This document shows positions 7,891-60,811 of a stretch of DNA of 64,000 nucleotides, in pieces. The stretch is from positions 501,001 to 565,000 of the forward strand of contig NZ_CP154260.1 in assembly GCF_039545795.1 (NCBI RefSeq). The letters run 5' to 3'. The number at the start of each line of letters is the position of its first letter. Position 1 is the first letter of the stretch. The stretch comes from Chitinophaga niabensis (lineage in GTDB: Bacteria; Bacteroidota; Bacteroidia; Chitinophagales; Chitinophagaceae). The translations under genes were made by a program, and so were the position numbers. Below the pieces are notes generated by a model. That model searched no databases, was not told the DNA's origin, and saw only the letters and a list, made by a program, of their open reading frames with translations.

Positions 7891-7894
7891 CAAC

Positions 7895-8840: not shown

Positions 8841-8891
8841 TGCGTTTTGGAGGTATTCTTAAAGTCTTCTCTACAGTGAGTTTAAGATAGG

Positions 8892-8975
8892 ATAAGCCGT
8901 ATATAAGTCGTATATAACCCGTATATAACCCGTAGATAAGCCGTCCCTTATAGATACGGCTTATCTATGGGTTAT
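8892..8975. repeat. 11-bp tandem repeat array with inverted copy (left of glpKF)
   Basis: Five units of 11 bp (ATAAGCCGTAT, ATAAGTCGTAT, ATAACCCGTAT, ATAACCCGTAG, ATAAGCCGTcc) run from 8892 to 8946. The last ones (8925-8944) are repeated in inverted orientation at 8956-8975, giving a 20-bp hairpin with 19 matches and one G-T pair around an 11-nt loop. It lies just after the transaldolase terminator. No gene covers it. Confidence 0.88.
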
Positions 8976-9060
8976 CTAAGGCTAAAGAACAGTTGATCCT
9001 ATCTTCGTTGATGATTCAAAGAAAACTCGTCATTGCAGGCAATAGCCCTGAGCTTTCCAT

Positions 9061-9450
9061 CATCTCAGGTTTATTCCTCAGGCGGCAGTGATCATTTCCT
9101 TGCCTGCATACATTACTCAGGCCTCCCATCTCAGGTTTATTCCTCAGGCGGCAGTGATCATTTCCTTGCCTGCATACATTACCCAGGCCTCCTATCTCAG
9201 GTTTATTCCTCAGGCGGCAGCGATCAATTCCTTGCCTGCATACATTACCCAGGCCTCCTATCTCAGGTTTATTCCTCAGGCGGCAGTGATCATTTCCTTG
9301 CCTGCATACATTACCCAGGCCTCCCATCTCAGGTTTATTCCTCAGGCGGCAGTGATCATTTCCTTGCCCTTGCATACATTAACCCTCAGCCTTCCATCAT
9401 CTCAGGCTTATTGGCAGCATCAACCATTTCCTTTTCCTGCACTCATTAGC
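9061..9450. repeat. 66-bp minisatellite (five near-identical units plus a degenerate sixth)
   Basis: Units start at 9061, 9127, 9193, 9259 and 9325 and differ at only a few positions; a sixth, diverged copy runs to about 9450. Each contains CTCAGGTTTATTCCTCAGGC, GGCAGTGATCATTTCCTTGC and CTGCATACATTAC. Because 66 is a multiple of three, the array stays open in several frames on both strands, but no frame has a signal of real coding. The stretch 8841-9574 has no gene and is otherwise AT-rich promoter sequence for glpK. Confidence 0.93.
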
Positions 9451-9574
9451 CAAGCCCTCACATCCTCCTCCCACTCATTTTCCCCACGCCGATAATTTTT
9501 TTTACTTTTAATTTATTCCTAGTATCTTACTACCTCGTAAACCAAGGTACCACGTTTAACTATACTTAAAAAGC

Positions 9575-45265: not shown

Positions 45266-45832
45266 ATGAGCGGAATGACCAACATAGAAGAAGCCGAATG
45301 GGTGCGCCGTTTCAGGGAAGGTGATCTTCTTGCGTTTGAATGGTTATACCATCAATATGCAAAGGAAATGATGGATGTTGCTGCAGGGAAACTGGTTTCC
45401 CTGGAAGAGGCAAGAGATATCATTCACGACCTGTTGGTAGAACTCTGGGGAAAACGTGCGCAGCTTCACATTGAACAATCCCTTCGTGCTTACCTGATGA
45501 AAGCCGTGCGTTTCAGGGTGATCGATCATTTACGCCGTAATATGTTACACGAAAACTATCTGGCAGCAGTAGAAACATCGGATAATGATGTAGATAACAG
45601 CACCGGTAATACCCTGATCTATAAAGACCTTGACAATGCGGTTTCAGCAGAGCTGGACCGTTTGCCGCCCCGGGCCCGTGAAATTTACCGCCTCAGCAGG
45701 CAACAGCACATGAGTGTGAATGAGATTGCCAGCACCCTCAATATCTCCAATCAAACCGTAAAGAATCAACTCACCATGGTTTTGAAGCAATTGCGCTTTT
45801 CCCTGAAGCGGATGTTCTTTTTCTTTCTCTGA
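45266..45832 (+). CDS. ECF-type (FecI-like) RNA polymerase sigma factor
   Basis: A 188-residue sigma factor with region 2 (FEWLYHQYAKEMMDVAAGKL, ARDIIHDLLVELWGKRAQLH, LRAYLMKAVRFRVIDHLRRN) and region 4 (LPPRAREIYRLSRQQHMSVN then EIASTLNISNQTVKNQLTMV). It ends in a hydrophobic tail MFFFFL, often seen in Bacteroidota ECF factors of SusCD loci. It is held inactive by the FecR-type protein encoded 67 bp downstream and should transcribe the susCD genes after the signal from the outer membrane. Confidence 0.93.
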   Translation: MSGMTNIEEAEWVRRFREGDLLAFEWLYHQYAKEMMDVAAGKLVSLEEARDIIHDLLVELWGKRAQLHIEQSLRAYLMKAVRFRVIDHLRRNMLHENYLAAVETSDNDVDNSTGNTLIYKDLDNAVSAELDRLPPRAREIYRLSRQQHMSVNEIASTLNISNQTVKNQLTMVLKQLRFSLKRMFFFFL

Positions 45833-45899: not shown

Positions 45900-46841
45900 A
45901 TGGATCAAGAGCAATTAAGCAAACTACTGGATAAATACCAGGCCGGCACCTGTACTCCTGAAGAGGAAGAGCAGGTGCTGAACTGGTTAAACAGCAGGAA
46001 TACAGATCAGGGTGAATGGCATAACATGACGGCTACGGCGCAGCAGGCATACCTGGATGCGCTGTACAAGGATGTTCGCCAGTCAATTAAAATACCGGCC
46101 CGCCGGCAGCCGCTGCGTATGATCCTGCGCGTAGCAGCCATTGCCGTAGTGGTATTGGGTGCTGCATTGATGTATATATTGATGAACAGGCCTGAGCAGA
46201 TGGAAACCATAGAGAGCCTTGCAGGCACCAAAAGGATCCAGCTGCCCGATGGTTCTGTGGTGGTGCTGAATGCAGCAAGTAAACTGCACTATATGGCAGA
46301 CTGGGAAACAAGGGAAGTGATCCTGGAAGGGGAAGCTTTCTTTGATGTAAAGGCCAGCAGCGAATTGCCTTTTGTGATCACCAGCGGTGAAGTGCGTACG
46401 CGGGTATTGGGTACGAGTTTTAACATCCAGGCTTATCCCAAAGATGGAAAGATCAGTGTAGGTGTGATCACCGGGAAAGTGGAAATGAGTAAAGCCGCAG
46501 AAAAAATAATACTGGAAAAAGGAGAAGCCGGTGTGTTTGATAAACAGCAGGGAAAGCTGAGCCATGGGGTGTTTCAGAAGGAGCCGGAAGCATGGGTGAA
46601 AGGAGAGCTCAACTTTTTCCATATGCCGCTGTCAGAAGTTACGGTGGTATTGCAACGCCATTATGATGTCAGCATAGAGATCAGTAATAATAGTTCAAAA
46701 CAATGTGAAATAACAGGCAGGTTCCATGTCAACCAAACGATAGATGAAGTATTGCAATTAATATGTAAAACAATTGATGCCACGTATAAAGCAGATGGAA
46801 AAAGGGTCATTATCCACGCAGAGAACGGCTGTCATCATTAA
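45900..46841 (+). CDS. FecR-family anti-sigma factor
   Basis: A 313-residue inner-membrane protein. The cytoplasmic N-terminus (residues 1-75, with the DKYQAGTCTPEEEEQVLNWL motif) binds sigma, one helix follows (AAIAVVVLGAALMYILMN, near residue 90), then the periplasmic FecR domain (GTKRIQLPDGSVVVLNAASK, EGEAFFDVKASSELPFVITS, GTSFNIQAY) and a C-terminal DUF4974/STN-binding domain (LSEVTVVLQRHYDVSIEI, ITGRFHVNQTIDEVLQLICK). It relays occupancy of the STN domain of the SusC-type receptor to the sigma factor. Confidence 0.93.
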   Translation: MDQEQLSKLLDKYQAGTCTPEEEEQVLNWLNSRNTDQGEWHNMTATAQQAYLDALYKDVRQSIKIPARRQPLRMILRVAAIAVVVLGAALMYILMNRPEQMETIESLAGTKRIQLPDGSVVVLNAASKLHYMADWETREVILEGEAFFDVKASSELPFVITSGEVRTRVLGTSFNIQAYPKDGKISVGVITGKVEMSKAAEKIILEKGEAGVFDKQQGKLSHGVFQKEPEAWVKGELNFFHMPLSEVTVVLQRHYDVSIEISNNSSKQCEITGRFHVNQTIDEVLQLICKTIDATYKADGKRVIIHAENGCHH

Positions 46842-46932
46842 AGACTAGAAATTATTATTTCCCGGAAGTTTAAAAATACCTGACAGGTTTGGCAACAAGC
46901 CTGAACGGGATTCCTGTAGCTATAAAGAAAAA

Positions 46933-46967
46933 GCCCCCCGTGCGAGCGCCAACCTGCACATGGGGGC
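46933..46967 (+). other. Leader stem-loop upstream of susC-like gene
   Basis: GCCCCC (46933-46938) pairs with GGGGGC (46962-46967) and GTGC with GCAC inside it, in the 158-bp gap between fecR and the susC start. There is no T run. It could be an attenuator or a regulatory leader. It lies 33 bp before the chosen start codon, so it argues against the upstream start at 46889. Confidence 0.55.
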
Positions 46968-46999
46968 CATGTTTAATGTTCCTAAAAACGATCAAATGT

Positions 47000-49900
47000 A
47001 TGGATTTTTACCGGTTCTCTAAACACACAATCCTTGTCATTATGAGAGGGTCAGTTATTGGGTTTGCCTTCCTGTTATTTTCACTGCAAATGGCATTTTC
47101 ACGCAGTGCGGAAGGTCAGACTGTATTAGACAAAAAGGTCAGTTTGCAGCTAAGGAACGAATCGCTCGAAACTGCGCTGAAATTACTGGGCGAGCGGGCC
47201 GATGTGGCTTTTATCTACAGCACACATGCCTCCCTGTCTCAGCCTGTGAACTTAAAGGTTACAGACCAGAAGCTGAGCGACCTGCTCAACCAGTTATTAC
47301 TGCCGGCCAGGCTGAACTGGGAACTGGTAGGCCGGAGTGTAGTGATCCGCAGTGCGGCAGCTCCAGCTCCTGTTGCTGCTGTAAAACGCATAGACCTTGA
47401 GATCACGGGTTTCGTGAAAGATGGTTTAGGCAATGCGCTGCCAGGTGTTACGATACGCGTAAAAGCAAAATCCGGCGGTACCATCACGGACGAAAAAGGG
47501 GTATACAAGATCAATGCAGATCCCAAAGACTCCCTGGAGTTCAGCTACATCGGTTTCAAAATACAAACCATAGCCGTGCGCAACAGGGATGAGATCAATG
47601 TAGTGATGGAAGCGCTGGAAGGTGGTTTGAATGAAGTAGTGGTGATCGGTTTCGGGCAACAGAAAAAGATCAGTCTTGTTGGCGCACAATCTTCCGTAAA
47701 ACCCTCGGAGCTGCAGATCCCGGCTTCTAACTTAAGTACTGTGCTGGGTGGCCGCCTCTCCGGTGTTATTTCCGTACAGCGTAATGGTGAGATCGGCGCC
47801 GGCGCCGATGTATGGATCAGGGGTGTATCTACTTTCGATAATGCACTGAGTAAACCATTGATCCTTGTAGATGGGGTGCCTCGTGATATGGGCAGCCTGG
47901 ACCCTGAAGACATTGCCAGTTTTACTGTGCTGAAAGATGCATCTGCTACTGCAGTGTATGGTGTGCGTGGTGCAAACGGTGTAATACTGATCACCACCAA
48001 AACCGGTAAGATCGGAAAACCAGTGGTACGTTTAAGGTACAATGAAGGGATCACACAGCTCACCAAGATCCCTGACTTTGCAGACGGCGTTACCTATATG
48101 AAAGCTTCCAACGAAGCGCTGACCACAAGAGGCGGTGCTCCTATGTATTCGGATGAAATGATAGAAATGACGCGTAACCAAACGGACCCTGAATTATATC
48201 CTGATGTGAACTGGTTTAAAGAACTGTTCGATAAATATGGCCGTAGCCGCCGCGTGAACCTCAATATCAATGGCGGTGCGGAAAAAGCCAGCTACTATGT
48301 AGGCGCCGGTTATTTTGATGAAGTGGGTATGTACAAAAAAGATGCACTCAATAGCTATAATAGTGAAATCGCTATGAAGCGATACAACGTTACCACTAAC
48401 ATCACTTTACAACCTACACGCACTACGAATGTTAAGTTAGGTTTACAGGGTTGGCTCGCGAATGTGAATTACCCCGGCTCCAATGCTGCGGACATTTTTG
48501 CGAAAGCCTACTTTGTAACGCCCATCATGTATCCTACCATGTACAAAGATGGAAAGATACCTGATATCCCTGCAGGTGCCGCCGTACAGAACCCCTGGGC
48601 ATTGCTGGCACACTCCGGTTATGCGAATCAGTGGCGCAATCAGTTATATTCAAACTTACAGGTAAGGCAGGACCTGGATTTTCTTGTGAAAGGCCTTTCC
48701 ATTAATGCCATGTTTGCTTTTGATGCTTACAATTACACCAGCCAGCGCCGTACAAAAAAACCAAGCACCTACCGCGCTACCGGAAGAGATGCTGATGGCA
48801 AGCTGATCTACCAGGAAGTATTGCGCGGAGATGATTTCCTCGGTTATTCCAATGCAAGGCAAGGTAACCGTTCTCTGTATAATGAAGCGTCACTGAACTA
48901 TGTGAATGAATTTGGTAAACACAGCATAGGTGCTATGCTGATCTATAACCAAAGCGATAAGATAGACACGCAGACAGAAGACCTCATCCTCTCCCTGCCT
49001 ACCCGTTTCAGAGGAGTATCCGGCCGTGCTACCTATGGCTATAACTCCAAATACTTCCTGGAGTTGAACTTTGGTTATAATGGTTCTGAAAACTTTACAC
49101 CGAAGAACCGTTATGGATTTTTCCCTTCAGGTGGTGTAGGATGGCTGTTATCTGAAGAGAAATTCTTTGAACCGCTGAAACAGGTTGTACAGGTGGCCAA
49201 AATACGTTTCTCACATGGTATTGTGGGCAGCAGCAACATCACCGGCAGAAGGTTTGCGTACATCGCTACAGTAGAAACTATTCCTGCCAGTGGCAATGCC
49301 TATACCTTCGGTAAGAACATGAACAATAACTATATAGGAAGGGAACTGGGAGAATATGCGTCAGATGTAACCTGGGAAACATCAGAGAAATCCAACCTGG
49401 GTTTTGACCTGCAGATCCTGCAAGGTATTAATGTACAGGTGGACCTGTTTAAAGAAAGAAGAGAAGGCATCTTCCTGCGTAAAGAATCTGTGCCTGCTTA
49501 TGCCGGTTTGCGGAGAGTACCTTTCGGCAACGTAGGGATCATTGAGAACAAAGGTGTGGATGGTTCCGTTACCTGGTCCGGCAAAATAGGCAAGGATATT
49601 AAGTTCCAGCTATTGGGCAACTTCACTTTCACCCGCAACAAGGTGATTGAAAATGATGAACCAGCACGCCGTTATCCATGGCTGGAAGAGCGTGGTTTGA
49701 AAGTGCAGCAGAAGTTTGGATACATTGCTTTGGGGATCTTTGAAAGTGATCATGAAGTAGCCAACAGCCCAAGGCAAACAGGTGATACCCGCAGAGGTGA
49801 TATTAAATACAAGGATCTGAATGCTGATGGTGTGATCGATGCAAATGATAAAACAGCGATCGGTTACGGTCCTATTCCGGAGATTGTATATGGCGTAGGG

Positions 49901-50362
49901 TTAACGCTCTCTTATAAAAACTTCACCCTCTCTGGTTTGTTCCAGGGTATTGGGAATGTAGATATCTATCTCACCGGTCAGGGTATGATCCCCTTCCAGC
50001 AAGGTATGGCCAATGGCAACCTCTTCAGTAATATCGGGGACCGGTGGACGGAAGAGAACCCAAATCCCAAAGCATTCTATCCGCGCTTAGCGCCCGGTAC
50101 CGTAAATGATAACTATGCAGAAAGTACCTGGTGGTTACAGAATGGCCGCTACATCCGTTTAAGGAATGCACAGCTGGCTTACAGTATGCCCAAAGCTTTC
50201 CTCAACAGGGCAAAGGTGAAGAGTGCGTCTGTATTCGTAGAGGGTGTGAACATCCTTACGTTCTCTCCATTCAAACTATGGGATGTTGAACTGGGTAATG
50301 GCAGTGGTGCTGCCTTCCCGCTGATCAAAACATTTAGCGCCGGTATTGACTTTACTTTCTAA
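47000..50362 (+). CDS. SusC/RagA-family TonB-linked outer-membrane transporter with STN signalling domain
   Basis: About 1,120 residues. After the signal (VIGFAFLLFSLQMAFS) comes an STN domain (VSLQLRNESLETALKLLGER to LNWELVGRSVVIRS), then a carboxypeptidase-like domain (ITGFVKDGLGNALPGVTIRV), the plug with the SusC signature VYGVRGANGVILITTKTGKI, and the 22-strand barrel ending in TFSAGIDFTF. It imports a large ligand held by the SusD lid, and the STN domain signals to FecR. ATGs at 46976 and 47042 are alternatives. The next genes, SusD and two EEP proteins, make up the ligand-handling set. Confidence 0.93.
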   Translation: MDFYRFSKHTILVIMRGSVIGFAFLLFSLQMAFSRSAEGQTVLDKKVSLQLRNESLETALKLLGERADVAFIYSTHASLSQPVNLKVTDQKLSDLLNQLLLPARLNWELVGRSVVIRSAAAPAPVAAVKRIDLEITGFVKDGLGNALPGVTIRVKAKSGGTITDEKGVYKINADPKDSLEFSYIGFKIQTIAVRNRDEINVVMEALEGGLNEVVVIGFGQQKKISLVGAQSSVKPSELQIPASNLSTVLGGRLSGVISVQRNGEIGAGADVWIRGVSTFDNALSKPLILVDGVPRDMGSLDPEDIASFTVLKDASATAVYGVRGANGVILITTKTGKIGKPVVRLRYNEGITQLTKIPDFADGVTYMKASNEALTTRGGAPMYSDEMIEMTRNQTDPELYPDVNWFKELFDKYGRSRRVNLNINGGAEKASYYVGAGYFDEVGMYKKDALNSYNSEIAMKRYNVTTNITLQPTRTTNVKLGLQGWLANVNYPGSNAADIFAKAYFVTPIMYPTMYKDGKIPDIPAGAAVQNPWALLAHSGYANQWRNQLYSNLQVRQDLDFLVKGLSINAMFAFDAYNYTSQRRTKKPSTYRATGRDADGKLIYQEVLRGDDFLGYSNARQGNRSLYNEASLNYVNEFGKHSIGAMLIYNQSDKIDTQTEDLILSLPTRFRGVSGRATYGYNSKYFLELNFGYNGSENFTPKNRYGFFPSGGVGWLLSEEKFFEPLKQVVQVAKIRFSHGIVGSSNITGRRFAYIATVETIPASGNAYTFGKNMNNNYIGRELGEYASDVTWETSEKSNLGFDLQILQGINVQVDLFKERREGIFLRKESVPAYAGLRRVPFGNVGIIENKGVDGSVTWSGKIGKDIKFQLLGNFTFTRNKVIENDEPARRYPWLEERGLKVQQKFGYIALGIFESDHEVANSPRQTGDTRRGDIKYKDLNADGVIDANDKTAIGYGPIPEIVYGVGLTLSYKNFTLSGLFQGIGNVDIYLTGQGMIPFQQGMANGNLFSNIGDRWTEENPNPKAFYPRLAPGTVNDNYAESTWWLQNGRYIRLRNAQLAYSMPKAFLNRAKVKSASVFVEGVNILTFSPFKLWDVELGNGSGAAFPLIKTFSAGIDFTF

Positions 50363-50374
50363 AATCACAAACTC

Positions 50375-52201
50375 ATGTACAGATCAGGAATCGCTCTTTT
50401 TCTGCTGACGATATTTTCCTTAACTGCCTGCCAGAAGAATTTCCTGGACCAGGTGCCGGATGACCGTATTACCATAGACCAGGTGTTTAACCGCAGAGAC
50501 CTCTCTGAACAATACCTGGCCAATATTTACAACACTGCTATCAGGGACCATGCAGGCGTTACCGCAGGTATTCCCTGGATTGGTTGCTCTGATGAAGGAG
50601 ATGTGTCCTACGACCGTGTTGATTACTATTCTTTCAAGATCAATATCGGTAACTGGAATGCATTGTCCAATTACTACAACTTCTGGCAGGGATACTACCA
50701 GGGTATCCGTTCTGCTACTTACTTTATATCCCGCATAGGTAAGAATGAGCAATTGCTCCTTGAACCGAACGGTGCAGAACTGATCAAACAATATACAGGA
50801 GAAGCCAGGTTCCTCAGGGCTTACTGTTACTTCCTGATCATGGAGCAATATGGTCCTGCAGTATTGGTAGGGGATGATGCTATTCCTGTTGACTTACCGA
50901 TCAGTGATCCGCGGCTCAATCTGCCGCGCAGTTCTTTTGATGAATGTGTGAATTATGTAGTGGAAGAACTGGATAAAGCAGCTACGGAATTACCGCTGCA
51001 TTTCACTGTACAAAGTGAAATGGATTATGGCCGTGCTACCAAAGCAGCCTGCATGGCTGTGAAGGCACGCCTGCTGCTGTATGCGGCGAGTCCTTTATTC
51101 AACGGGAATAAAGACTATGCAAATTTTAAGAACACAGATGGTAAACAACTGATCAACCAAACAGAAGATATCACCAAATGGCGCAGGGCAGCAGATGCCT
51201 CCAAGGCAATCATAGATGAAGGGCTTTTCTCTTTGTATAAAAAGAGCGATCCCATCATTTCCCTGCGTGATCTTTTCTTAGATACCTGGAACAGCGAATG
51301 GATCTTTGCACGTGCAAAAAGTTCCATCTCTGCCTGGGAGCGTACCGCTACACCGAGAGGTATTGCTGCAGGATATTCTGCAACAGGCCCTACACAAAAA
51401 CAGGTAGATGCCTATGAAATGGAAAATGGTATGCGGCCCATTACCGGCTATAATGCAGATGGTTCTCCTGTCATCAATACAGCTTCCGGTTATAAGGAAA
51501 CAGGCATGTCTACCGCAGCAACCAAATACACGACTGTTGGTACCTACAATATGTATGTGGGAAGAGAGCCCCGCTTTTATGTAGCCGTATCTTATCCGGG
51601 CAGCTACTGGATCAATCCTTCAGAAGGGAATAAAGTGATCCAGACCTGGTTCTCCGGAGAATCAGGTAAGAAAGGCTCCTGGGACCATTCCCGCACTGGT
51701 TACCTGAACCGTAAAAATGTATCGCCTTTAACCAATCCACGTCTCAGTAAATACCAGGACCGGGCCTATCTCATGTTCCGTTTCGGAGAAGTGCTGCTGA
51801 ATTATGTAGAAGCATTGAATGAAGCAGAACCCGGGCATAGCGATATCCTCTTGTACCTGAACATGATCCGGGACAGGGCAGGTGTGCCGCAATACGGCCA
51901 GGGCGCCAATCCTTTGCCTGTGCCCAATGGACAGGTAGCAATGAGAGAAGCCATCCGTCATGAACGGCAGGTAGAACTGGCATTTGAATACCTCCGGTAT
52001 TTTGATACCCGCCGCTGGAAGATCGCAGAACAAACAGAAGGTGGTGCATTTTATGGTATGAACGTAGATGCAGATCCACCGGCATTCTATCGCAGGTCGG
52101 TATTTGAAACAAGAGTGTTCAGGAAGAACTATTATCTCTTCCCGGTACCGCAATCTGAAATAGACATTGACAAGAACATTGTGCAGAACCCGGGATGGTA
52201 A
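50375..52201 (+). CDS. SusD/RagB-family nutrient-binding lipoprotein
   Basis: A 608-residue protein with lipoprotein signal (GIALFLLTIFSLTACQKNFL, lipidated Cys19). SusD features are FLDQVPDDRITIDQVFNRRD at the start, TGEARFLRAYCYFLIMEQYG in the TPR-like core, AVKARLLLYAASPLFNG, LRLGEVLLNYVEALNEAEPG-type FRFGEVLLNYVEALNEAEP, and AMREAIRHERQVELAFEYLR, ending in FPVPQSEIDIDKNIVQNPGW. It forms the lid over the SusC barrel and binds the ligand. The start is 12 bp after susC, so the two are co-transcribed. Confidence 0.95.
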   Translation: MYRSGIALFLLTIFSLTACQKNFLDQVPDDRITIDQVFNRRDLSEQYLANIYNTAIRDHAGVTAGIPWIGCSDEGDVSYDRVDYYSFKINIGNWNALSNYYNFWQGYYQGIRSATYFISRIGKNEQLLLEPNGAELIKQYTGEARFLRAYCYFLIMEQYGPAVLVGDDAIPVDLPISDPRLNLPRSSFDECVNYVVEELDKAATELPLHFTVQSEMDYGRATKAACMAVKARLLLYAASPLFNGNKDYANFKNTDGKQLINQTEDITKWRRAADASKAIIDEGLFSLYKKSDPIISLRDLFLDTWNSEWIFARAKSSISAWERTATPRGIAAGYSATGPTQKQVDAYEMENGMRPITGYNADGSPVINTASGYKETGMSTAATKYTTVGTYNMYVGREPRFYVAVSYPGSYWINPSEGNKVIQTWFSGESGKKGSWDHSRTGYLNRKNVSPLTNPRLSKYQDRAYLMFRFGEVLLNYVEALNEAEPGHSDILLYLNMIRDRAGVPQYGQGANPLPVPNGQVAMREAIRHERQVELAFEYLRYFDTRRWKIAEQTEGGAFYGMNVDADPPAFYRRSVFETRVFRKNYYLFPVPQSEIDIDKNIVQNPGW

Positions 52202-52226
52202 TTGATCACGTTTAACATTATTCGAT

Positions 52227-53411
52227 ATGAAGTATTTACTCAGTATACTATCAATTATTCTCATTTCCGCCTGTAAGTACGATAAGGATATCCCTCATCC
52301 GGAATTGTATGAAAAGGTATATATGCCACAGGCCGTGAACCTGCCTTCCATCGTGAACCTGGTGATGGCAGATACACCACAGACCATCATCTTCGGCGCT
52401 GCCTTTGGCGGGCCGCGTAATAACAGCAATAACCTGGAAGTAAAGTTCAAGGTAGATGCATCGCTTGTAGCAGCTTACAATCAATTGAACGGCACTGCCT
52501 ACGAAGTGATGCCGGCCGGCAGTTATGAACTGTTGCAAACCAGCGGTATCATTGCCAAAGGGCAGCAAAGTACTGCACCGCTGAAGTTGCAGATTAAAAC
52601 AGCGGGTGTACTGGAATCACTGAAGAAATATCTTTTACCGGTTACGATAGAGCAGGTAACAGGAAATCTACCGGTGAATGAGAACCTGCGCACCGCCTAC
52701 TTTTTAGTGGAAGCACAAAGAGACGGCCTGAACCTGAAAGTGATCTCTTATGGTAAGAAGTCAACCGTATTTGATGTGAATGCGGTGGCAGATGTTTTAC
52801 GTCCATTAGGTGGAGATCTGATCGTGATCAGGGAGATAGACAAGAATACTAAACGCAGCGGTTACGTAGATATGCCTGCGGAGATCGCGAAGAAGCTGGG
52901 TATGTTCAGCTACTTTGCCAAAGCTATTAATCATGATGGCGGAGAATATGGTACCGCCGTGTTATCCAAATTCCCGATCACAGACAGTGCGGCATTTATA
53001 CTGCCCACACCTTCCGGCGAACCCGGTCCGCTGGCTGTGATCAAAGTGAAAGTAAAAGAAGGGCAGATCCTCACATTTGCCGGTACACATTTCAATGCGA
53101 ACGTTACTTTAAGAGCTGGCCAGCCGGCTAAGTTACTGGAGTTCTTACAGCCTTATGACGGGCCGGTTATTGTTGGCGGTAACTTCAATGATCAATTGGC
53201 AGGAGATACCTACCTGGCCTTAAAAACACGCTTTACGCTGATCTGTACAGAAGGTTGCGCTTTCAACTACCCGGCTACCAACCCTGCCAGTAACACAGAC
53301 TATATTATCTATTCACCTGCTAACCGTTTCAGGGTAGTAGAGAATAGAGTAGGAACTGTTTCCACCAGTGATCACCTTCCTGTAATTTCTCAAATGCAGG
53401 TTTATTATTAG
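52227..53411 (+). CDS. DUF1735 + EEP-fold lipoprotein with substituted catalytic residues
   Basis: A 394-residue lipoprotein (SIILISACKYDKD, Cys16). Residues ~30-160 match DUF1735 (FKVDASLVAAYNQLNGTAYE), a beta domain of SusCD-linked binding proteins. Residues ~168-394 are an endonuclease/exonuclease/phosphatase (EEP) fold like that of the next gene, but two key residues differ: the motif-1 Asn is Gly176 (KVISYGKKS), and the Asp of GDLN is Asn319 (GGNFNDQ). Glu203, His288, Asp358, Asp381 and His382 remain; the Asp after the motif-3 His pair is Asn290. It is therefore probably a binding protein or weak hydrolase (inference). It starts 25 bp after susD. Confidence 0.85.
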   Translation: MKYLLSILSIILISACKYDKDIPHPELYEKVYMPQAVNLPSIVNLVMADTPQTIIFGAAFGGPRNNSNNLEVKFKVDASLVAAYNQLNGTAYEVMPAGSYELLQTSGIIAKGQQSTAPLKLQIKTAGVLESLKKYLLPVTIEQVTGNLPVNENLRTAYFLVEAQRDGLNLKVISYGKKSTVFDVNAVADVLRPLGGDLIVIREIDKNTKRSGYVDMPAEIAKKLGMFSYFAKAINHDGGEYGTAVLSKFPITDSAAFILPTPSGEPGPLAVIKVKVKEGQILTFAGTHFNANVTLRAGQPAKLLEFLQPYDGPVIVGGNFNDQLAGDTYLALKTRFTLICTEGCAFNYPATNPASNTDYIIYSPANRFRVVENRVGTVSTSDHLPVISQMQVYY

Positions 53412-53415
53412 TAGT

Positions 53416-54222
53416 ATGATAAGATTGATTTTATTGTCCTTTCTGGCGCTCTCCTGTGGTAAAAGTAATGGCGGTACCAATCCTCCGGTACCGGTGGATA
53501 CTTCCGTAAAGGTGCGTGTTAAAGTGCTGAGTTATAATATCCGCAGGGGTATTCCCATGACCGGCACTGCGATAGATTTGCAGGGAACCGCAGATGTGAT
53601 CAAATCTATTCAGCCGGACCTGGTAGCCCTTTCTGAAGTGGACCGCTATACAAAACGCAGTGGTGCTACAGTAGATCAGGCAAAAGAATTGGGCAGGTTA
53701 ACCGGTATGTATCATTACTTCACCAAAGCCATGGCATATGATGGTGGTGAGTATGGAGATGCCGTGCTTTCCCGTTTCCCTATCCTGGATTCCCTGCGGC
53801 TGGAATTACCGATCGCGCTGGCAGGTTCTGAACCAAGGTCTGTGGCTATGATCACCGTAGAAGCAGAAGGTATGAAGTTCAACTTCGCTGCTACGCACCT
53901 GGATCACCTGGGAGCAGAAGATAACCGCATTCTCCAGGCAAACAGGTTGGTGAAGGATCTCACGCAAACTCCTTTGATCCTGGCAGGTGACCTGAATGCT
54001 TTGCCAACGAGCCAGACGATTGGCATCTTAAAACAGCAGTTCACCATGGGATGTTTGAATTGTGCTTATACTTTTCCTTCGGATAAGCCGGACAGAACGA
54101 TCGATTATATTATGTATAAACCCGGAAATCATTTCAGGGTGATCAGTTATGGCCCGGTCACCGGAAAGCTGGCCTCAGACCATTTACCGCTGGTGGCTAT
54201 TTTGCAGATGACTAAAAAATAA
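53416..54222 (+). CDS. EEP-family (endonuclease/exonuclease/phosphatase) lipoprotein, catalytic residues intact
   Basis: A 268-residue lipoprotein (FLALSCGKSNGG, lipidated Cys14) consisting of a single EEP domain. All catalytic positions are present: Asn41 (LSYNIRRG), Glu74 (ALSEVD), His161 with Asp163 (AATHLDHL), Asp192 and Asn194 (AGDLNALP), Asp230 (TIDYIMY), Asp255 and His256 (ASDHLPL). The family cleaves phosphodiester or phosphomonoester bonds in nucleic acids, phospholipids or inositol phosphates. It shares a Cys pair (residues 213 and 216) with the neighbour. The gap to the previous gene is 4 bp. As a surface or periplasmic lipoprotein it could process the ligand imported by the adjacent SusCD. 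Confidence 0.9.
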   Translation: MIRLILLSFLALSCGKSNGGTNPPVPVDTSVKVRVKVLSYNIRRGIPMTGTAIDLQGTADVIKSIQPDLVALSEVDRYTKRSGATVDQAKELGRLTGMYHYFTKAMAYDGGEYGDAVLSRFPILDSLRLELPIALAGSEPRSVAMITVEAEGMKFNFAATHLDHLGAEDNRILQANRLVKDLTQTPLILAGDLNALPTSQTIGILKQQFTMGCLNCAYTFPSDKPDRTIDYIMYKPGNHFRVISYGPVTGKLASDHLPLVAILQMTKK

Positions 54223-54244
54223 TAAAGAACCATGTGTATGCAGG

Positions 54245-54275
54245 CCCCAAAGTGATCCGTCACTTTGGGGTTTTT
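54245..54275 (+). terminator. Terminator of the SusCD/EEP operon
   Basis: A perfect 11-bp stem (54245-54255 with 54260-54270) with TCCG loop and a T run. Confidence 0.92.
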
Positions 54276-54347: not shown

Positions 54348-54887
54348 ATGCCTGAAATCCCAGCTAAAGTGCTTTTTGACGAGTTGTTTGTCACAAACCG
54401 GGACAAGATCTACCGCTTTGCGTTCAAGCTAACCAATGATGCCGCAAGAGCAGAAGAAGTTACGCAGCAATGCTTTATCAGGTTATGGGAGAATATTGAT
54501 AAAGTGCAGCCAGGGCAGGATATTTTCCCTTTATTGTTTGTGTACGTAAAGAATATCATCATTGATGAAACCCGCAGGTTATACCGGGAAAAGAAAAACC
54601 TTGGTGAGTTAACCCTTCATAAAAAGGAGGTCCGCGAAGAGGGATCTGCTGAGAATACCTTATTGTACAAAGAGTTGCGTAAAGAAATGCAGCAACTCAT
54701 AGCCCGGTTGCCGGAACAGCGAAGGAATATTTACCTGTTGAGCCGGGATCAGGGGCATACCCACAAAGAAATTGCTGCCCAATTGTCCCTATCACCTATG
54801 ACCGTCAGGAATCATCTGCAACTGGCGGCACAATTCATTCGAAGAGAGCTGATGGCTCGTTATGATATGGAAAAGATCACGCTGTAA
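54348..54887 (+). CDS. ECF-type sigma factor without adjacent anti-sigma gene
   Basis: A 179-residue FecI-like sigma factor: region 2 (NRDKIYRFAFKLTNDAARAE, EVTQQCFIRLWENIDKVQPG, DIFPLLFVYVKNIIIDETRR) and region 4 (LPEQRRNIYLLSRDQGHTHK then EIAAQLSLSPMTVRNHLQLA). Unlike the sigma factor at 45266 it has no fecR next to it and lacks the hydrophobic tail. The nearest fecR lies 6 kb away on the other strand, at the far end of a TonB-receptor operon that converges on this gene. A pair across that distance is plausible but unproven. Confidence 0.9.
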   Translation: MPEIPAKVLFDELFVTNRDKIYRFAFKLTNDAARAEEVTQQCFIRLWENIDKVQPGQDIFPLLFVYVKNIIIDETRRLYREKKNLGELTLHKKEVREEGSAENTLLYKELRKEMQQLIARLPEQRRNIYLLSRDQGHTHKEIAAQLSLSPMTVRNHLQLAAQFIRRELMARYDMEKITL

Positions 54888-54900
54888 AAACAGCGTGATC
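54875..54900. terminator. Hairpin overlapping the sigma stop codon, possibly bidirectional terminator
   Basis: A perfect 11-bp stem (54875-54885 with 54890-54900) around AAAA encloses the TAA stop. On the minus strand it is followed by TTTTCC, so it may also end the convergent lipoprotein transcript. Confidence 0.65.
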
Positions 54901-54993
54901 TGCTATCTGATAAATGAACTTGTGGAGAATGCATTTCTGAATGCACGAAAAATTTGAACACTGTTTTCAAAGCCGGGTTTCCGGTAAATCACT

Positions 54994-55764
54994 TTAGAGC
55001 TCAATTGGCTGCACACTATAGAAATACATAACTGTTCCGCCTCCCAGATCTAATTCATCTGCTGTGGTGCTGATAATATGTTCTTTTCCGGCAGTAAAGC
55101 CCAGTACAGCCAGATCATTGCCACTGGTATCTAATATAAATTCACCTGTATCCGCATTTTTATACCGTATAAAATAGGTAATATCCATTTGGTCACTGTC
55201 TTTCATGGGCACTATAACCACTTTTGGGTGCAGTTTCAGGCGTTGATAATTTTCAAATACGGTTAATTCGTCAAATTCACCGGTTGTATTATTGAGTTTA
55301 TATAACACAACATCTACCTTTAACGTATTACTCTGTATGGCTGTGGGCAGTTTATTGAATAACTGAAAGGATGCAGAATCGTTACCAAAGCCTGATTTAC
55401 CTTTCAGGAAACTTTTAATGCCAAGATCTTCACTGAAGGCCAGGCGTAAATTCATTTTTTCTCCACTCTTTACCAGTACGTTCGTGTCCAGCAATACTTC
55501 ATTTGACCCCTTCTTGCGGAAAGTGACCTTTGTTTTTTTGTCAGCTGCCAGGATCTGTGCTTTGTAACTCCCGGCAGGACCTGCAACCAGCGAATCTTTC
55601 AGCATGCTGCTTTCCATATATACCTGCAATGCTGGTGTGCCTGGTAGTTGTATCAACTCCAGTTCCAATAACCCAAAGGATTGTTCTTCCACTGGATTAC
55701 CTTTTTTACAGGCCATTGTTAATAAGAGGAATGCAGCGCTCAAAAATGTAAATGTTCTTAGCAT
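54994..55764 (-). CDS. Lipoprotein of unknown function
   Basis: A 256-residue lipoprotein with signal LSAAFLLLTMACKKG (lipidated Cys19). The mature protein appears to be two beta domains: VTFRKKGSNEVLLDTNVLVK then DVVLYKLNNTTGEFDELTVF. It vaguely recalls DUF4397-like surface proteins, but I cannot name the family. Start at 55764 (MLRTFTFLSAAF), since the extension to 55809 lacks a signal. It is the last gene of the minus-strand TonB-receptor group, so it may be a surface accessory protein. Confidence 0.65.
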   Translation of the reverse strand: MLRTFTFLSAAFLLLTMACKKGNPVEEQSFGLLELELIQLPGTPALQVYMESSMLKDSLVAGPAGSYKAQILAADKKTKVTFRKKGSNEVLLDTNVLVKSGEKMNLRLAFSEDLGIKSFLKGKSGFGNDSASFQLFNKLPTAIQSNTLKVDVVLYKLNNTTGEFDELTVFENYQRLKLHPKVVIVPMKDSDQMDITYFIRYKNADTGEFILDTSGNDLAVLGFTAGKEHIISTTADELDLGGGTVMYFYSVQPIEL

Positions 55765-55849
55765 ACTTTTCGTTGATTTATATATTTTAATGTAAGTGAG
55801 AATGACCATTAGTTCCGGTAACGCCTTCTACTGTTGTGTGGTTGGCTTA

Positions 55850-56045
55850 TCAGGAGGTAAATACGATCGGGCAACTGGCAATGCCTTGTGCATCTGTTAC
55901 ACCCTCTGGTGTACCTGGGTTACCGCCCGAAGGAAGTATGCCAGGTATGCCACGAATAAGGGTTCCGGATTCGATGGTAAGGGTTGTTGTGCCTGAAGTA
56001 TTTTCTACGGATAGCACTGCAGCAATGATGTAATAGAAAAGCCGT
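55850..56045 (-). pseudogene. Decayed duplicate fragment of the neighbouring beta-helix lipoprotein gene
   Basis: The frame reads YYIIAAVLSVENTSG then TTTLTIESGTLIRGIPGILP, SGGNPGTPEGV, TDAQGIASCPIVFTS and a TGA stop. This follows residues ~66-135 of the upstream protein (ATLTIQPGTIIRGLAGTPAS, GGNPGTPGGV, DAQGTASCPIVFTSYRE), with eight residues deleted and a premature stop. No proper N-terminus or C-terminal body remains. It fills the 360-bp gap between two lipoprotein genes. Confidence 0.8.
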
Positions 56046-56125
56046 GACATATTTTCTGATTTGAAAGTAAGTGTGGAAAGCTTTCCTTTCCACACTTACA
56101 AAAATTAGAAATTGAAGAATACCGA

Positions 56126-57559
56126 TTATTGGAATCTAACCCATGATCCGGTCCAGTCTGTACCACCGAAAACAAATGCACCAGCATCAACCGGAGAATT
56201 TGCAGGGCTGCTGGCTTGTGGGAAGTAGTTAGCTGCGCCACCGAATTCAGAAGGGCGAACAAAAGGATTCACCAGTCTTACATTCAGTGATTGTGCAGCA
56301 GTGTAGCCCAGGTTACCTGAAGGCGTAGTCAGGGGAGTGAACACACCACTTACCTCTTGCGCGTACGGACGAACAAATGCATTAGACAATACGCTGGTCA
56401 GAACAGTTTGACCATTATTGTATGCATTGTAGCTATTGCTGATGATCGGGGTCTGATCAAAAACAATACCGTTGTTGAAACCGATAAAGATGCTTTTAGA
56501 AAGCGTAGTTTGAGAAGATCTGCGGATGTGTGCAGAACGGCCATATCTACCTGTTCCTGAAGGAGCGCCATTAGTAATGGAAGCTGCTGCAGCGGAAGAA
56601 ACACCTACCAGGGTAATGTGGCTGAGTACAGGTTTAGTGATAGGAGTTGCAGTAGAATCTCCTGCAGCGTTGTTATCACTTTCGATACCGTTAGATTGGC
56701 TCTTATCTGCACGGGCAGGGTCAACAACAACCAAAGCAGTATCAATTGTACCTACATAACCATTGTCAAAATCCAGTGCATCATCCAGTGCATCGATAGA
56801 TACAAGGTGAGAAGCATTTACAGTACCACCAAAGAATTCGAAGCCATCATCATTTGATTTGAATACTTCTACATTCCTGATCACAGTACCGTTACCAACG
56901 CCACCCAGGGTTAAACCATTGAGCTCATTGTCAACAGCCAGTTCCCAACCAGCATATTCAATACGAACGTGCGTGAGGATACCGGAATTATCACCTGTTG
57001 AGCTACCACCATAGGTGTTATCATAAGTAACACCGCCAGCGAGGTTATTGGGAATGCCTTCAACAACAGAAGAAGTTGATCTGTTGGTAGGCGCTTCACC
57101 CAGGATCACAATGCCACCCCAATCTCCGGGAGCAGGAATTCCTGACCTTTCTCTGTAAGAAGTGAATACGATAGGGCATGATGCAGTTCCCTGAGCATCA
57201 ATAAAACCTGTTTTGGTGATCACGAGAACACCACCTGGAGTACCAGGATTACCACCTGATGCAGGAGTACCAGCTAAACCGCGGATGATAGTACCAGGCT
57301 GAATAGTGAGTGTAGCACCTTCAACAGCTACCACACCATCCAGATAATAAAGGGTGTTGCTGTTTAAAGTAGTGTTGGTAGAGATCTTACCACTTAAAAT
57401 TACAGGGCCTAATGTATCAGTGCACGGAGACAATGGCGTGGGGCCGGCATTCAGAGCACGGAAATCACCTTGTTGTTGTACTTTGTTTTCCTTCTTACAT
57501 GCAGTTCCGAGTACCATCAGACCGGCTGCAACTGTGAGAATTAGGGTTGTCGTTTTCAT
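56126..57559 (-). CDS. Repeat-rich (probable right-handed beta-helix) surface lipoprotein
   Basis: A 477-residue lipoprotein (LTVAAGLMVLGTACKKEN, Cys21). The body has short beta-strand turns with G/N/D at the corners (VEGATLTIQPGTIIRG, GPGDWGG-type PAPGDWGGIVILGEAPTNRS, GNGTVIRNVEVFKSNDDGFE, FFGGTVNASHLVSIDALDDA), as in right-handed beta helices. Proteins with the GDWGGIVILG motif are common next to TonB receptors in Bacteroidota and often misnamed. Lying 75 bp downstream of a receptor gene that has no SusD partner, it may act as the surface binding subunit (inference). Confidence 0.75.
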   Translation of the reverse strand: MKTTTLILTVAAGLMVLGTACKKENKVQQQGDFRALNAGPTPLSPCTDTLGPVILSGKISTNTTLNSNTLYYLDGVVAVEGATLTIQPGTIIRGLAGTPASGGNPGTPGGVLVITKTGFIDAQGTASCPIVFTSYRERSGIPAPGDWGGIVILGEAPTNRSTSSVVEGIPNNLAGGVTYDNTYGGSSTGDNSGILTHVRIEYAGWELAVDNELNGLTLGGVGNGTVIRNVEVFKSNDDGFEFFGGTVNASHLVSIDALDDALDFDNGYVGTIDTALVVVDPARADKSQSNGIESDNNAAGDSTATPITKPVLSHITLVGVSSAAAASITNGAPSGTGRYGRSAHIRRSSQTTLSKSIFIGFNNGIVFDQTPIISNSYNAYNNGQTVLTSVLSNAFVRPYAQEVSGVFTPLTTPSGNLGYTAAQSLNVRLVNPFVRPSEFGGAANYFPQASSPANSPVDAGAFVFGGTDWTGSWVRFQ

Positions 57560-57634
57560 AAAATTTTGATTTCTGATTTAAGTTAACAATGAGTGCCTGA
57601 TCAGGGCTATACATAGTACGTACATATGTGCATG

Positions 57635-60600
57635 TTAAAAACTATAAGAAAGGGTGGCGCTGTATGTGCGGCCTGGTCTTGCTTCATAATCAATCTGGTC
57701 TTTTCCTTTCTGATAGAGTAAGTCTTTTATGGAAGGGTCCTTTCTTCCATTTGTGATTTCCCCGTCTGCATAAAAGTTCCGGTATACAATGTTGTAGCTG
57801 TCTAACAGGTTAGCAATGGCTAGTCTCACCTCCGCTTTTTGTTTCAGGAAACGGAAAGCAACCTGTCCATCCAGGGCCTGTATTGGCCTTTCAAATAGCG
57901 ACTCCCTGTAGAATTCAGAGGGGCGGAACATCCTGTTAGTAACATAATTGTATACAAGGCTGAGAGAGAACGGTTTGGTATCATAATAAATACCTGCGTT
58001 CACCATATAGTTGCTGGCTCCTGTTTGTGGGCGTTTTTCTGTTCTGCCAACAGAATCTATGATGATCAGTTTGCTGGTAGCCGGATCTGTGAAAGTCTTG
58101 GAGTATCCTTGTTTCACTTTTGCATCCAGGGCCGTAAAGTTGCCATATAAAGTGACGTTCTTCAACACCGGTACTTTTGTGAAAGCCAACGTTTTCCGCA
58201 TTTCTATTTCCAATCCAAGGTTAGTGGCGCTGGCGTTATTGGCTAGTTTGTAACTCCTGTTATCTCCTTCTTTATATATTTCCATTGGGTGTTTAAACTC
58301 TTTGTGGAAGAGAGAGAGCGAAAGTATCTCTCCGGGGCCTGGATAGTATTCGTATCTGAAATCGAGGTGCCTTACCAGTGTAGATCTTACAAGTGCGCTA
58401 TGGTATTGGCCTCCCAGTTCAAAATCATACTCACTGAAATAGGATAATTCACGCAGATCGGGACGGATGATACTATTGGCATAGGCCAGGCGGAGGTTCA
58501 TTTTTGAAGTGAGGCTATAGGTAAGATTAGCAGAAGGGAAGAGGCGCCAGTTTGGGTCTCTGTCTTTTACTGCGTCACTATAGGTGCTGTCCAGTAATGC
58601 GTTTACATTGTTCATGTTATAATACTCAGCTCTCAGACCCCATACGAGGCGTAATTTCTCACCAAATTTATTGTCGAACATACCATATACGGCGTGCAGG
58701 TTTGCGGTTTTATCAAAGTCATCTGCGAACTGGCTTACTACTATCTGTCCTCCTCTTTCCGGTATAAATGTTTTTGAAATGGGTGGAAAATCCTGGGTGT
58801 TGTACTGTTGTGATCCGGTATTCAGTACATAGAACAAACGATCTTTCGACCATCCGCCGTAGCCGGTTTTAAATGTATGGTCCCAATTGAACAGTTTAAA
58901 CGGTATGGAGGCAGAAACATCCCATGTATAGTTCTTTTCGAAAGCACGGCTCCATAAACGCAGCGCCCCGGCATTGATCCCATTGCTAAATGGGTTGGAG
59001 ATGTTCATATCATTTGTTGCCAGGTAGTCGCTTTCAATAATGTCAGCCTTAAACTGATGATTGTCTGGCTTATTACGGTCCAGGTTAATATAAGCACCCA
59101 GCCATTTAAGTTTAACACCTTTGTTACCCAGTGCGTATTCTCCTTTCAGCTGGTGCTGAGTGAGCGCTGTTTGCGTGGTAAGGTCGTAATAACCTAACAG
59201 CGTTGCAGAAGGATTTGCGTGTGCACCTTTACCAAATACAAGTTGCTGGTCGTACATACGCAGGTACATAGCCTGGTAAGAAAGCCGTAGCTTTTCATTA
59301 CGGTAACCGATACCGAACATTCCTCCCAGGTTGGTGGTGAAACCATATCTTTTACCATTAAAGCTAACCTGCTCGCCTTCGGAACTGCCTTCAAATCCAT
59401 CACGGCTCATGCGGATATCCTGGGTAGCGAAGGTATTCCTGTAGCTCAGTGCCAGTATCACACCCAGCTGATCTTTTGCAGATAAACGGATAGCGCGGCC
59501 TGCAGAGAGCTGATAGTTCTGCGAAGGACTGGCATTCATATCATAGAGGCCCCAGTTGTTGCTGAACATCCGGGGATTTTTGCCACCGGCATTATATGCA
59601 GCTATTACATCCTTTGTATTACTCCAATCCAGTTTACCTAAAAGGTTCCGGTGGGGAGCTGCTTGTGCCCGGTATTCACTTCCGTCTAATTCAAGACTGC
59701 GAAAGTTCTTATTTGTAGTGTTAGAGTTTACACTACCGCCAACACCGATGTTTAAAAAGTTATTGACTGGAATGTCCAGCGTATTTACTTCTACCAGGCC
59801 GCCACCAAATTCTGCATTCCTGTCAGGAGTTAACGTTTTTACTACCGTTACGTTGTCTACAATGTTAGAAGGGATCAGGTCGAAGCTGAAGTTTTTACGG
59901 TTCAGTTCTGTGCTGGGCATAACCTGGCCATTCAGTACAGCCTGGTTGTAACGCTCACTTAATCCGCGTACTACCACATATTTATTATCCACAGTGGCCA
60001 AACCGCTAACTCTTTTTAATACCTCCCCGATATTTTTATCCGGTGTGCGGCTGATCTGTTCAGCACTTATACCATCTGTAATAGCTGAGTTATTCTTTTG
60101 TATAGCGTATAAACCTTCTACGGAAGCACGTTTGTAATTGGCTGTTACAGTTACTCCTTTCAGACGTGACCCCTCGCTTTTTAATACGATATCCAGCGGA
60201 ACGTTCTCTTTATTTTTTACAGTGATCTCTGTTACTTTGCGTGTTTCGTAGGAGATATAGCTGAAGGTAAGGTTGTATATGCCGGGAGAGAGGTTTAATT
60301 CATATGTTCCATCCACATTACTTACAACACCGGGGCCATTCTCGGCTATGATAGTTACACCTGGCAGCGGTTCATTTTTGTTGTCCACTACTTTCCCGCT
60401 GATGCGGCCTTTTTCTTCCACAGGTTTTTTTTCCTGACGGCCCTTGCGTAGTGCAATGGCATTGTTTGAAAATTCAATATCCAATGGTGCGTAGATATCC
60501 ATATAACTCAGAACATCTTCCAGTTTACTGTCTTTAAAGCGAAGGTTGCTTAAAGTACAGGCCTGCAGGTATTCAGGGTCATAGGTAAAAGAGTACTTCG

Positions 60601-60766
60601 TTTGTTTTTCCAGTGATTTTACCACCTGAACGGCAGTAGCATGTTCCATATTAAGGGATACCTTATCTGCCAGTCCTTTATAAGATTGTGCAAATAAAGA
60701 GGACGGGAGGATCACACAAAAGAACATAGTGGTCCCTTTACAAAATCTTTGTGTAGATTTTTGCAT
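57635..60766 (-). CDS. TonB-dependent outer-membrane receptor with STN domain (non-SusC type)
   Basis: A 1,043-residue receptor: signal peptide (FFCVILPSSLFAQ), STN signalling domain (VSLNMEHATAVQVVKSLEKQ to IEFSNNAIALRKG), carboxypeptidase-like domain (RISGKVVDNKNEPLPGVTII), plug (PDKNIGEVLKRVSGLATVDN, VVRGLSERYNQAVLNGQVMP, ADRNAEFGGGLVEV-like DRNAEFGGGLVEVNT), and barrel ending in YSATLSYSF. It lacks the SusC-specific signature of the receptor at 47000. The STN domain implies signalling to FecR encoded 45 bp upstream. The ligand is unknown. Confidence 0.93.
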   Translation of the reverse strand: MQKSTQRFCKGTTMFFCVILPSSLFAQSYKGLADKVSLNMEHATAVQVVKSLEKQTKYSFTYDPEYLQACTLSNLRFKDSKLEDVLSYMDIYAPLDIEFSNNAIALRKGRQEKKPVEEKGRISGKVVDNKNEPLPGVTIIAENGPGVVSNVDGTYELNLSPGIYNLTFSYISYETRKVTEITVKNKENVPLDIVLKSEGSRLKGVTVTANYKRASVEGLYAIQKNNSAITDGISAEQISRTPDKNIGEVLKRVSGLATVDNKYVVVRGLSERYNQAVLNGQVMPSTELNRKNFSFDLIPSNIVDNVTVVKTLTPDRNAEFGGGLVEVNTLDIPVNNFLNIGVGGSVNSNTTNKNFRSLELDGSEYRAQAAPHRNLLGKLDWSNTKDVIAAYNAGGKNPRMFSNNWGLYDMNASPSQNYQLSAGRAIRLSAKDQLGVILALSYRNTFATQDIRMSRDGFEGSSEGEQVSFNGKRYGFTTNLGGMFGIGYRNEKLRLSYQAMYLRMYDQQLVFGKGAHANPSATLLGYYDLTTQTALTQHQLKGEYALGNKGVKLKWLGAYINLDRNKPDNHQFKADIIESDYLATNDMNISNPFSNGINAGALRLWSRAFEKNYTWDVSASIPFKLFNWDHTFKTGYGGWSKDRLFYVLNTGSQQYNTQDFPPISKTFIPERGGQIVVSQFADDFDKTANLHAVYGMFDNKFGEKLRLVWGLRAEYYNMNNVNALLDSTYSDAVKDRDPNWRLFPSANLTYSLTSKMNLRLAYANSIIRPDLRELSYFSEYDFELGGQYHSALVRSTLVRHLDFRYEYYPGPGEILSLSLFHKEFKHPMEIYKEGDNRSYKLANNASATNLGLEIEMRKTLAFTKVPVLKNVTLYGNFTALDAKVKQGYSKTFTDPATSKLIIIDSVGRTEKRPQTGASNYMVNAGIYYDTKPFSLSLVYNYVTNRMFRPSEFYRESLFERPIQALDGQVAFRFLKQKAEVRLAIANLLDSYNIVYRNFYADGEITNGRKDPSIKDLLYQKGKDQIDYEARPGRTYSATLSYSF

Positions 60767-60811
60767 ACGCGATTGAATTGTTTTTATTGTTAAGAAAGTG
60801 GGAAACAGGTT

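Follow-up and report, generated by a model that had tools for sequence, protein, structure and literature searches.

A predicted pseudo-EEP lipoprotein on a DUF1735 stalk, paired with an intact EEP protein in a SusCD operon of Chitinophaga niabensis

In an operon of Chitinophaga niabensis, the SusC and SusD genes are followed by a lipoprotein gene that joins a DUF1735 stalk to an EEP domain lacking several catalytic residues, and then by a gene for an EEP protein in which those residues are intact. The altered domain, termed here the pseudo-EEP, most likely holds a phosphorylated ligand for the neighbouring EEP and SusCD, a reading in which we place somewhat more belief than doubt. The pseudo-EEP would have originated long ago, when a gene in the lineage of the operon's EEP phosphoesterase was duplicated, and loss of the motif-1 Asn, the GDxN Asp and two further conserved residues, an Arg and an Asp, would have left a cleft without metal-assisted hydrolysis. 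Displayed at the cell surface on its DUF1735 stalk, in the SusE/SGBP slot of the operon, the domain would hold a phosphate-bearing ligand near the membrane, probably a phosphorylated glycan or its product; the intact neighbour would cut that ligand and SusCD would import the product. The plan is known already with the GH18 fold, and is seen here with the EEP fold.

Two EEP proteins behind one transporter

The window, meaning the whole stretch of 64,000 nucleotides analysed, belongs to a genome assembled as a single 7.2 Mb contig with 12 matches to PF03372 and four to PF08522. The SusC-SusD-fusion-EEP operon spans 46889-54222, with intergenic gaps of 12, 25 and 4 bases in order (Table 1). The hairpin behind the EEP gene possibly marks the operon's end, a weak sign by itself, the region having 2 terminator-like sites against a mean of 2.9 in shuffles. 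A few genes 5' of the operon there is a gene for a GDPD-type glycerophosphodiester phosphodiesterase (41812-42855). The segment at 54348-61744 carries an ECF sigma gene, 271-aa and 477-aa genes, a TonB receptor gene and a 310-aa gene. In a C. niabensis metagenome-assembled genome (L051), FecR, TonB receptor, 498-aa and 262-aa genes lie on the other strand with ECF at the far end, so that the segment looks inverted between the two, judged from gene order and size; a search for inverted repeats around this rearranged segment 3' of the operon gave nothing convincing.

Table 1. Positions of the operon genes, protein domains and altered residues in the window
Feature	Position	Strand	Evidence
ECF sigma factor, likely operon regulator	45266..45832	+	Pfam Sigma70 r2/r4
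FecR-like anti-sigma factor	45900..46841	+	Pfam FecR and FecR_C
SusC-like TonB-dependent outer-membrane transporter, start codon uncertain	46889..50362	+	TIGR04056, 976 bits
SusD-like lipoprotein	50375..52201	+	PF07980 and PF14322
Fusion lipoprotein, DUF1735 stalk and pseudo-EEP, 394 aa	52227..53411	+	Pfam, alignments, model
DUF1735 / BT_3987-like_N domain, residues 29-147	52311..52667	+	PF08522, E 3.1e-23
Pseudo-EEP domain, residues 167-394	52725..53408	+	
Gly176 replacing motif-1 Asn	52752..52754	+	Alignments; Asn in 0/29 fusion rows
Gly267 replacing conserved Arg of active EEPs	53025..53027	+	Gly in 29/29 fusion rows
Asn319 replacing Asp of GDxN	53181..53183	+	Asn in 28/29 fusion rows
Intact EEP lipoprotein, predicted partner enzyme, 268 aa	53416..54222	+	PF03372, conserved residues, model
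Terminator-like hairpin, 14 pairs, directly 3' of the EEP gene	54242..54273	+	

The stalk of the fusion matches PF08522 at 83.2 bits, above the curated cut-off of 25.9; this family, BT_3987-like_N, we take to be the domain formerly named DUF1735. The remainder has the EEP fold, with a PF03372 match at residues 184-383 (E 1.8e-11). The neighbour matches the same family (E 2.1e-18), and the two EEP domains are 38% identical over 242 columns (E 4e-45). Both folds are predicted with confidence (pLDDT 91.9 for the fusion model, 91.6 for the neighbour). A lipobox-like N-terminal stretch ending in Cys is present in each protein, and so is a pair of Cys residues, as the initial annotation had pointed out, spaced CxxxC in the fusion (C340/C344) and CxxC in the neighbour (C213/C216). 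As a lipoprotein gene directly after SusCD, judged by gene order and the lipobox-like N-terminus, the fusion occupies the SusE/SGBP slot, and its product is presumably exposed at the surface. The neighbour is 97% identical to a C. niabensis protein, P0121, found among the best 120 of 1337 matches.

Residue roles in the EEP alignments are taken over, as an assumption, from DNase I and APE1. According to the same annotation, Gly stands at the motif-1 Asn and Asn at the GDxN Asp in the fusion, beside a neighbour with both residues kept, and the alignments agree. They extend the losses to about nine residues of the motif-1 loop after Gly176 and to two more conserved positions, an Arg and an Asp (Arg141 to Gly and Asp163 to Asn in the neighbour's numbering). 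The neighbour, by comparison, keeps all 11 of the conserved catalytic residues checked. Across the 59 rows classed as active, a class from which three odd rows (P0295, P0300 and P0301) are excluded, Asn41, Glu74, Asp76, Arg141, His161, Asp192, Asn194 and Asp230 are each present in 59/59, Asp163 in 57/59, and Asp255 and His256 each in 58/59. The window fusion retains Glu203, His288, Asp358, Asp382 and His383, that is, the metal Glu, the motif His, the IDY Asp and the last Asp and His, so some residual chemistry is possible.

Comparison of the predicted structures with Foldseek and VIA-align singled out no substrate, many EEP enzymes scoring alike. Within the fusion, the VIA-align rows cover the EEP domain from roughly residue 161 onwards. 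The mannosyl-6-phosphatase BT3783 (PDB 4c1r) is one of the enzymes compared, at 24% and 20% identity; many other EEPs score like it, and its substrate therefore cannot be transferred. In sequence, the DUF1735 part weakly matches proteins of solved structure that have this domain (best E 0.0014), and Foldseek contributes a single row for it, 4dqa. Among plasmid records searched at the protein level, none spans 80% of the fusion. An EEP-family protein 29.8% identical to its C-terminal part recurs on Escherichia coli plasmids (records H1-H10).

Two families of altered EEP copies

The losses are shared by a family of fusions. The two protein searches behind these comparisons covered the best 120 of 167 and the best 120 of 1337 matches. 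When 23 fusions and nine stand-alone EEPs are aligned, the fusions are without the motif-1 Asn and about nine following loop residues, and all 23 have GN instead of GD. In a larger set of 29 fusion rows, which includes at least two proteins twice (P0004 is L051 and P0007 is L048), the motif-1 Asn is found in none, Arg141 is replaced by Gly and Asp163 by Asn or Ser in 29/29, and Asp192 is replaced by Asn in 28/29 (partner numbering). The alignment of these rows is gapped at position 41, and the letters there, Gly or Asp, were read from other alignments. The exception at Asp192 is the fusion of genome G018 (L083, 8547-10202), a protein with two DUF1735 matches that keeps the GDxN Asp and lacks the motif-1 Asn; it may be an intermediate or a reversal. 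Retention elsewhere is mixed: Glu74 in 24/29, His161 in 24/29, His256 in 26/29 and Asp255 in 14/29. With losses this wide, a chance change of motifs in a single sequence was ruled out.

Losses across the family give the fusions a high probability of being non-hydrolytic, as judged from sequence. The competing proposal, that the fusion is an enzyme of changed chemistry, slow or specialised, working with the Glu, His, second Asp and last His that it still has, draws on the persistence of Glu, motif His and last His in most fusion rows and on the GDxN Asp of the G018 protein. Other EEP enzymes are crippled when this Asp is lost. We judge the proposal improbable, because the motif-1 Asn and the Arg are gone from every fusion row and the GDxN Asp from all except one, and because five members of the family (P0018-P0022) have also lost the Glu and the motif His, as has a sister family described below.

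That the fusion is merely a decaying relic without function seems hardly credible. The absence of several catalytic residues would suit such a relic, but of six genome pairs, the five that allowed dS to be computed give the pseudo-domain a dN/dS of 0.05-0.08, well under 1, although dS in those pairs is 1.1-2.3 and thus near saturation. Moreover, 54 columns are invariant over the 23 fusions, and gene order is conserved in all nine fusion loci. The strict lipobox pattern is found in 20 of 26 fusions, 19 of 51 unfused proteins and 84 of 118 EEPs. Five of the six fusions that it misses carry a Cys behind a run of hydrophobic residues, and the sixth, P0022, has a short N-terminus.

The full fusion was found in two of 195 sampled genomes of the host's family (G000 and G018), and 394 genomes examined with the partner EEP as query gave one more (G615). 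A further search, with the leading EEP gene of another Pedobacter BS3 locus (L137) as query, added four DUF1735 fusions (P0296-P0299), one of them named Pedobacter africanus.

The L137 search returned 66 proteins, 56 of which (P0239-P0294) form a sister family of unfused pseudo-EEPs. Here the metal Glu has become Gln in 55/56 rows (the remaining one, P0288, is a fragment that does not reach this site), the catalytic His has become Glu in 56/56 and the GDxN Asp has become Asn in 53/56, and the last His is absent throughout, while the motif-1 Asn is retained in 49/56 and the Arg in 55/56. Because the fusions mostly keep the Glu and His and the unfused proteins the Asn and Arg, most of the losses look separate. 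Four unfused members have an extra N-terminal part, PKD in P0286, P0293 and P0294 and PF18942 in P0290; a Pfam rerun agrees, giving PKD for P0286 and DUF5689 for P0290. Asn in place of the GDxN Asp is shared by both families, but three PKD forms retain the Asp, as does the G018 fusion, so even the Asn at this site may have arisen more than once.

Pedobacter BS3 has both the fused and the unfused type in its genome, and its L137 locus has three consecutive EEP genes after SusCD (6938-9554), of which one is dead and the other two retain the residues. The EEP protein P0300 falls outside the pseudo clade; it has Ser at the motif-1 Asn and Asn at the GDxN Asp, with its other residues intact, and is perhaps another, separate inactivation. 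An arrangement of SusC-SusD-EEP-(532 to 539 aa protein)-EEP recurs in three genomes (L087, L088 and L089, 6-10 kb), the first EEP having Gln for Asp163. In L084 (6415-9273, 952 aa) and L086 (6438-8297, 619 aa) the EEP domain is N-terminal in far longer proteins and retains its catalytic residues, except for Ser in place of Asp163 in L086.

Pairing, descent and the third slot

All nine fusion loci retrieved have SusC, SusD, fusion and EEP in that order on one strand: the window, Chitinophaga cymbidii (L047), Pedobacter BS3 (L048, the same as L136), two of Rufibacter (L049 and L050), the C. niabensis metagenome-assembled genome (L051), G018 (L083), G874 (L135) and G615 (L140). ECF and FecR relatives lie 5' of the operon in seven of the nine and are absent from the two Rufibacter loci. 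Nine unfused loci (L085, L137 and L160-L166) likewise read SusC-SusD-pseudo-EEP-EEP without exception. A search of 251 genomes matched ten at the cut-off, with the match in G874 left uncounted because it is an intact partner EEP. Metagenome proteins come without gene context, so that contigs of equal size, as for P0005/P0164, P0010/P0158 and P0030/P0170, give a hint of adjacency only.

Within the 18 pairs, each checked at 11 residues, every live partner keeps all 11 and every dead copy has lost several. Asn41, Arg141 and Asp163 are missing from all nine fusions and Asp192 from eight of them. Every one of the unfused copies has Gln74, Glu161 and Asn192, and none has Asp255 or His256. Such retention of a dead and a live copy together among relatives suggests that the dead copy has a job of its own.

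The descent of the pairs was examined in a tree of 97 EEP domains from which eight catalytic columns had been removed and long or near-identical rows left out, with one EEP row chosen as the root. A quick tree of 104 rows had warned of joined long branches, and dropping 17 rows gave an 87-row tree. In the 97-row tree the pseudo-EEPs form a clade of 36 rows (support 100/99), made up of the fusions (100/98), the unfused proteins (100/99), the PKD or DUF5689 forms (100/94) and P0295. The partners of the unfused pseudo-EEPs are one clade (100/99), those of the fusions sit with other EEPs in a 24-row group (98/98), and pseudo-EEPs and both sets of partners together make one group of 72 rows (96/95). 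An AU test found a single clade of pseudo-EEPs and fusion partners compatible with the data (p-AU 0.405), which is no proof of such a clade.

The simplest reading of this tree, which leaves the active sister subclade unsettled, would be one old duplication followed by parallel descent of the dead and the live copy. The initial annotation had called the two genes duplicates. They are paralogues of one lineage, the fusion's EEP domain sharing the 72-row group with that of its neighbour in the domain phylogeny that had been proposed as a check; they are an old pair that diverged together, and not recent copies. A recent in-genome copy of the neighbour was ruled out by the 38% identity and the old clade.

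Pairing on this scale also admits a different function, in which the pseudo-EEP would act as a scaffold or regulator: its binding partner would be the intact EEP or the lid of SusCD and not a small ligand, and it would place the enzyme at the transporter or activate it there. We consider it doubtful, though deserving of weight. In its favour, an intact EEP accompanies the pseudo-EEP in all 18 loci fetched, distances between pseudo-EEP and EEP are correlated over those loci (r 0.93), and BT1284, a GH18-like analogue, bound no glycan tested. Distances of pseudo-EEP and SusD are correlated just as strongly, however (r 0.91), a sign that the genes of the operon share their descent and not that pseudo-EEP and EEP are in special contact. 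The motif columns, in addition, are conserved above the rest of the domain, with mean pair identities of 0.69 against 0.45 in the fusions and 0.64 against 0.48 in the unfused proteins; active groups show the same tendency (0.80 against 0.59 and 0.80 against 0.54), so this conservation may partly reflect the fold.

Also at odds with a scaffold is what related operons place in the third slot. F5/8C and tachylectin are typical binding modules. In genome G233 (L138), whose SusC and SusD are 52% and 51% identical to those of the window, the third gene encodes DUF1735 with F5/8C and the fourth an intact EEP. A related operon (L053; SusC 40% and SusD 39% identical) has DUF1735 with tachylectin preceding a gene for alpha-N-acetylglucosaminidase (NAGLU), and in L052, L054 and L055 the slot holds DUF1735 proteins of 320-322 aa, with no EEP among the neighbours. 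Since the slot in related operons is filled by typical binding modules, the pseudo-EEP most likely substitutes for one, and ligand binding is a more likely function for it than scaffolding.

As to what might be bound, GH20 and GH109 genes occur near the fusion operon in three of the nine loci. In L135 they directly follow the EEP gene on the same strand, and in L049 and L050 they are on the opposite one; for the remaining six loci, of which the window is one, no neighbour tested with Pfam points towards a hexosamine-glycan substrate. A paralogous EEP of the window's genome (L145) has GH92, GH20 and asparaginase-2 type genes around it, GH92 adjoins L164 on the other strand, L092 has GH92 and alpha-N-acetylglucosaminidase, and L142 has alpha-N-acetylglucosaminidase. 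Another paralogue (L146) is found instead beside GFO/IDH/MocA and 3-keto-disaccharide hydrolase genes. Because neighbours for the Pfam runs were chosen by eye, this glycoside hydrolase pattern is no statistical result; it inclines us weakly to glycans that carry phosphate and are rich in hexosamine, and less to nucleic acids, as the substrate.

Relation to known systems

The initial annotation did not recognise the design as one described before, a doubt that fails in general, since BT1284 and BT1285 of Bacteroides thetaiotaomicron follow the same plan in another fold (PMC11180146). BT1284, from the N-glycan locus PUL16, is GH18-like, has no catalytic acids and is impaired in activity, and the live BT1285 is encoded in the same PUL (PMC11180146). 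Proteins of the BT1284 type are widespread (85 sequences from at least 20 species), and a crystal structure of the B. faecium orthologue has an N-terminal DUF1735 (PMC11180146). In both cases, then, dead and live relatives of one fold share a SusCD locus and DUF1735 is involved, although in the passages of PMC11180146 drawn on here DUF1735 is stated for the B. faecium orthologue and not for BT1284 itself, and gene order goes unstated. The fold is a GH18 TIM barrel there and EEP here, with no GH18 domain in the present fusion, and the EEP case adds the sister family and the module swap as evidence on the slot. Because none of the N-glycans tested was measurably bound by BT1284 (PMC11180146, 2024), the binding step proposed here is one that we infer.

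DUF1735 itself had been taken as a sign of binding, a suggestion that does not hold up against PMC11216935, where it is argued to act as a spacer bound to the membrane, the work being done by the module C-terminal to it, and where in BT3987 it carries a live enzyme. Binding is thus not implied by DUF1735 itself, and the domain was set aside as the binding part. The proteins treated there resemble the present fusion in being lipoproteins with an N-terminal DUF1735, in gene position after SusCD and in variable C-terminal modules (LamG3, F5/8C, GH18 and DUF4361 among PUL proteins), but an EEP module seems unlisted in the main text of PMC11216935, which has no match to exonuclease, nuclease or phosphatase.

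SusCD-like transporter operons with phosphoesterases are also known from the PusCD systems of Flavobacterium (PMC8115612). The enzymes named for PUSI and PUSII belong to other families, however, a pseudo-enzyme goes unmentioned in the relevant passages, and the endo/exonuclease/phosphatase protein Fjoh_0074 is an orphan outside both loci (PMC8115612). The pertinent passages of PMC12269599 contain no dead-enzyme binding protein, and a search of the open-licence literature found no description of an EEP version of the dead and live pair, of its sister family or of the module swap. In that literature the name BT1284 turned up, outside PMC11180146, in PMC5472040 alone, a paper on a beetle by its title.

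Taken together with the GH18 case, the two EEP families allow a wider and more tentative reading, to which we give rather less than even credence: the third SusCD slot may repeatedly recruit a killed copy of the operon's own surface enzyme as a binding module, with a cleft whose acidic metal ligands have become amides holding a phosphate ligand without metal or cutting. Recruitment of this kind would have happened once with GH18, as published, and, in one EEP lineage, by different routes of inactivation, with forms that have a DUF1735 stalk, a PKD or DUF5689 part, or none. If true, it would outline a general route to receptors in Bacteroidota, in which an enzyme is duplicated, catalysis removed and recognition kept. 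The dead and live pairs are good material for working out the order in which catalytic residues are lost, and if the pseudo-EEP does bind its neighbour's target, the dead copy would be a ready probe for the substrates of this class of SusCD-phosphoesterase operons.
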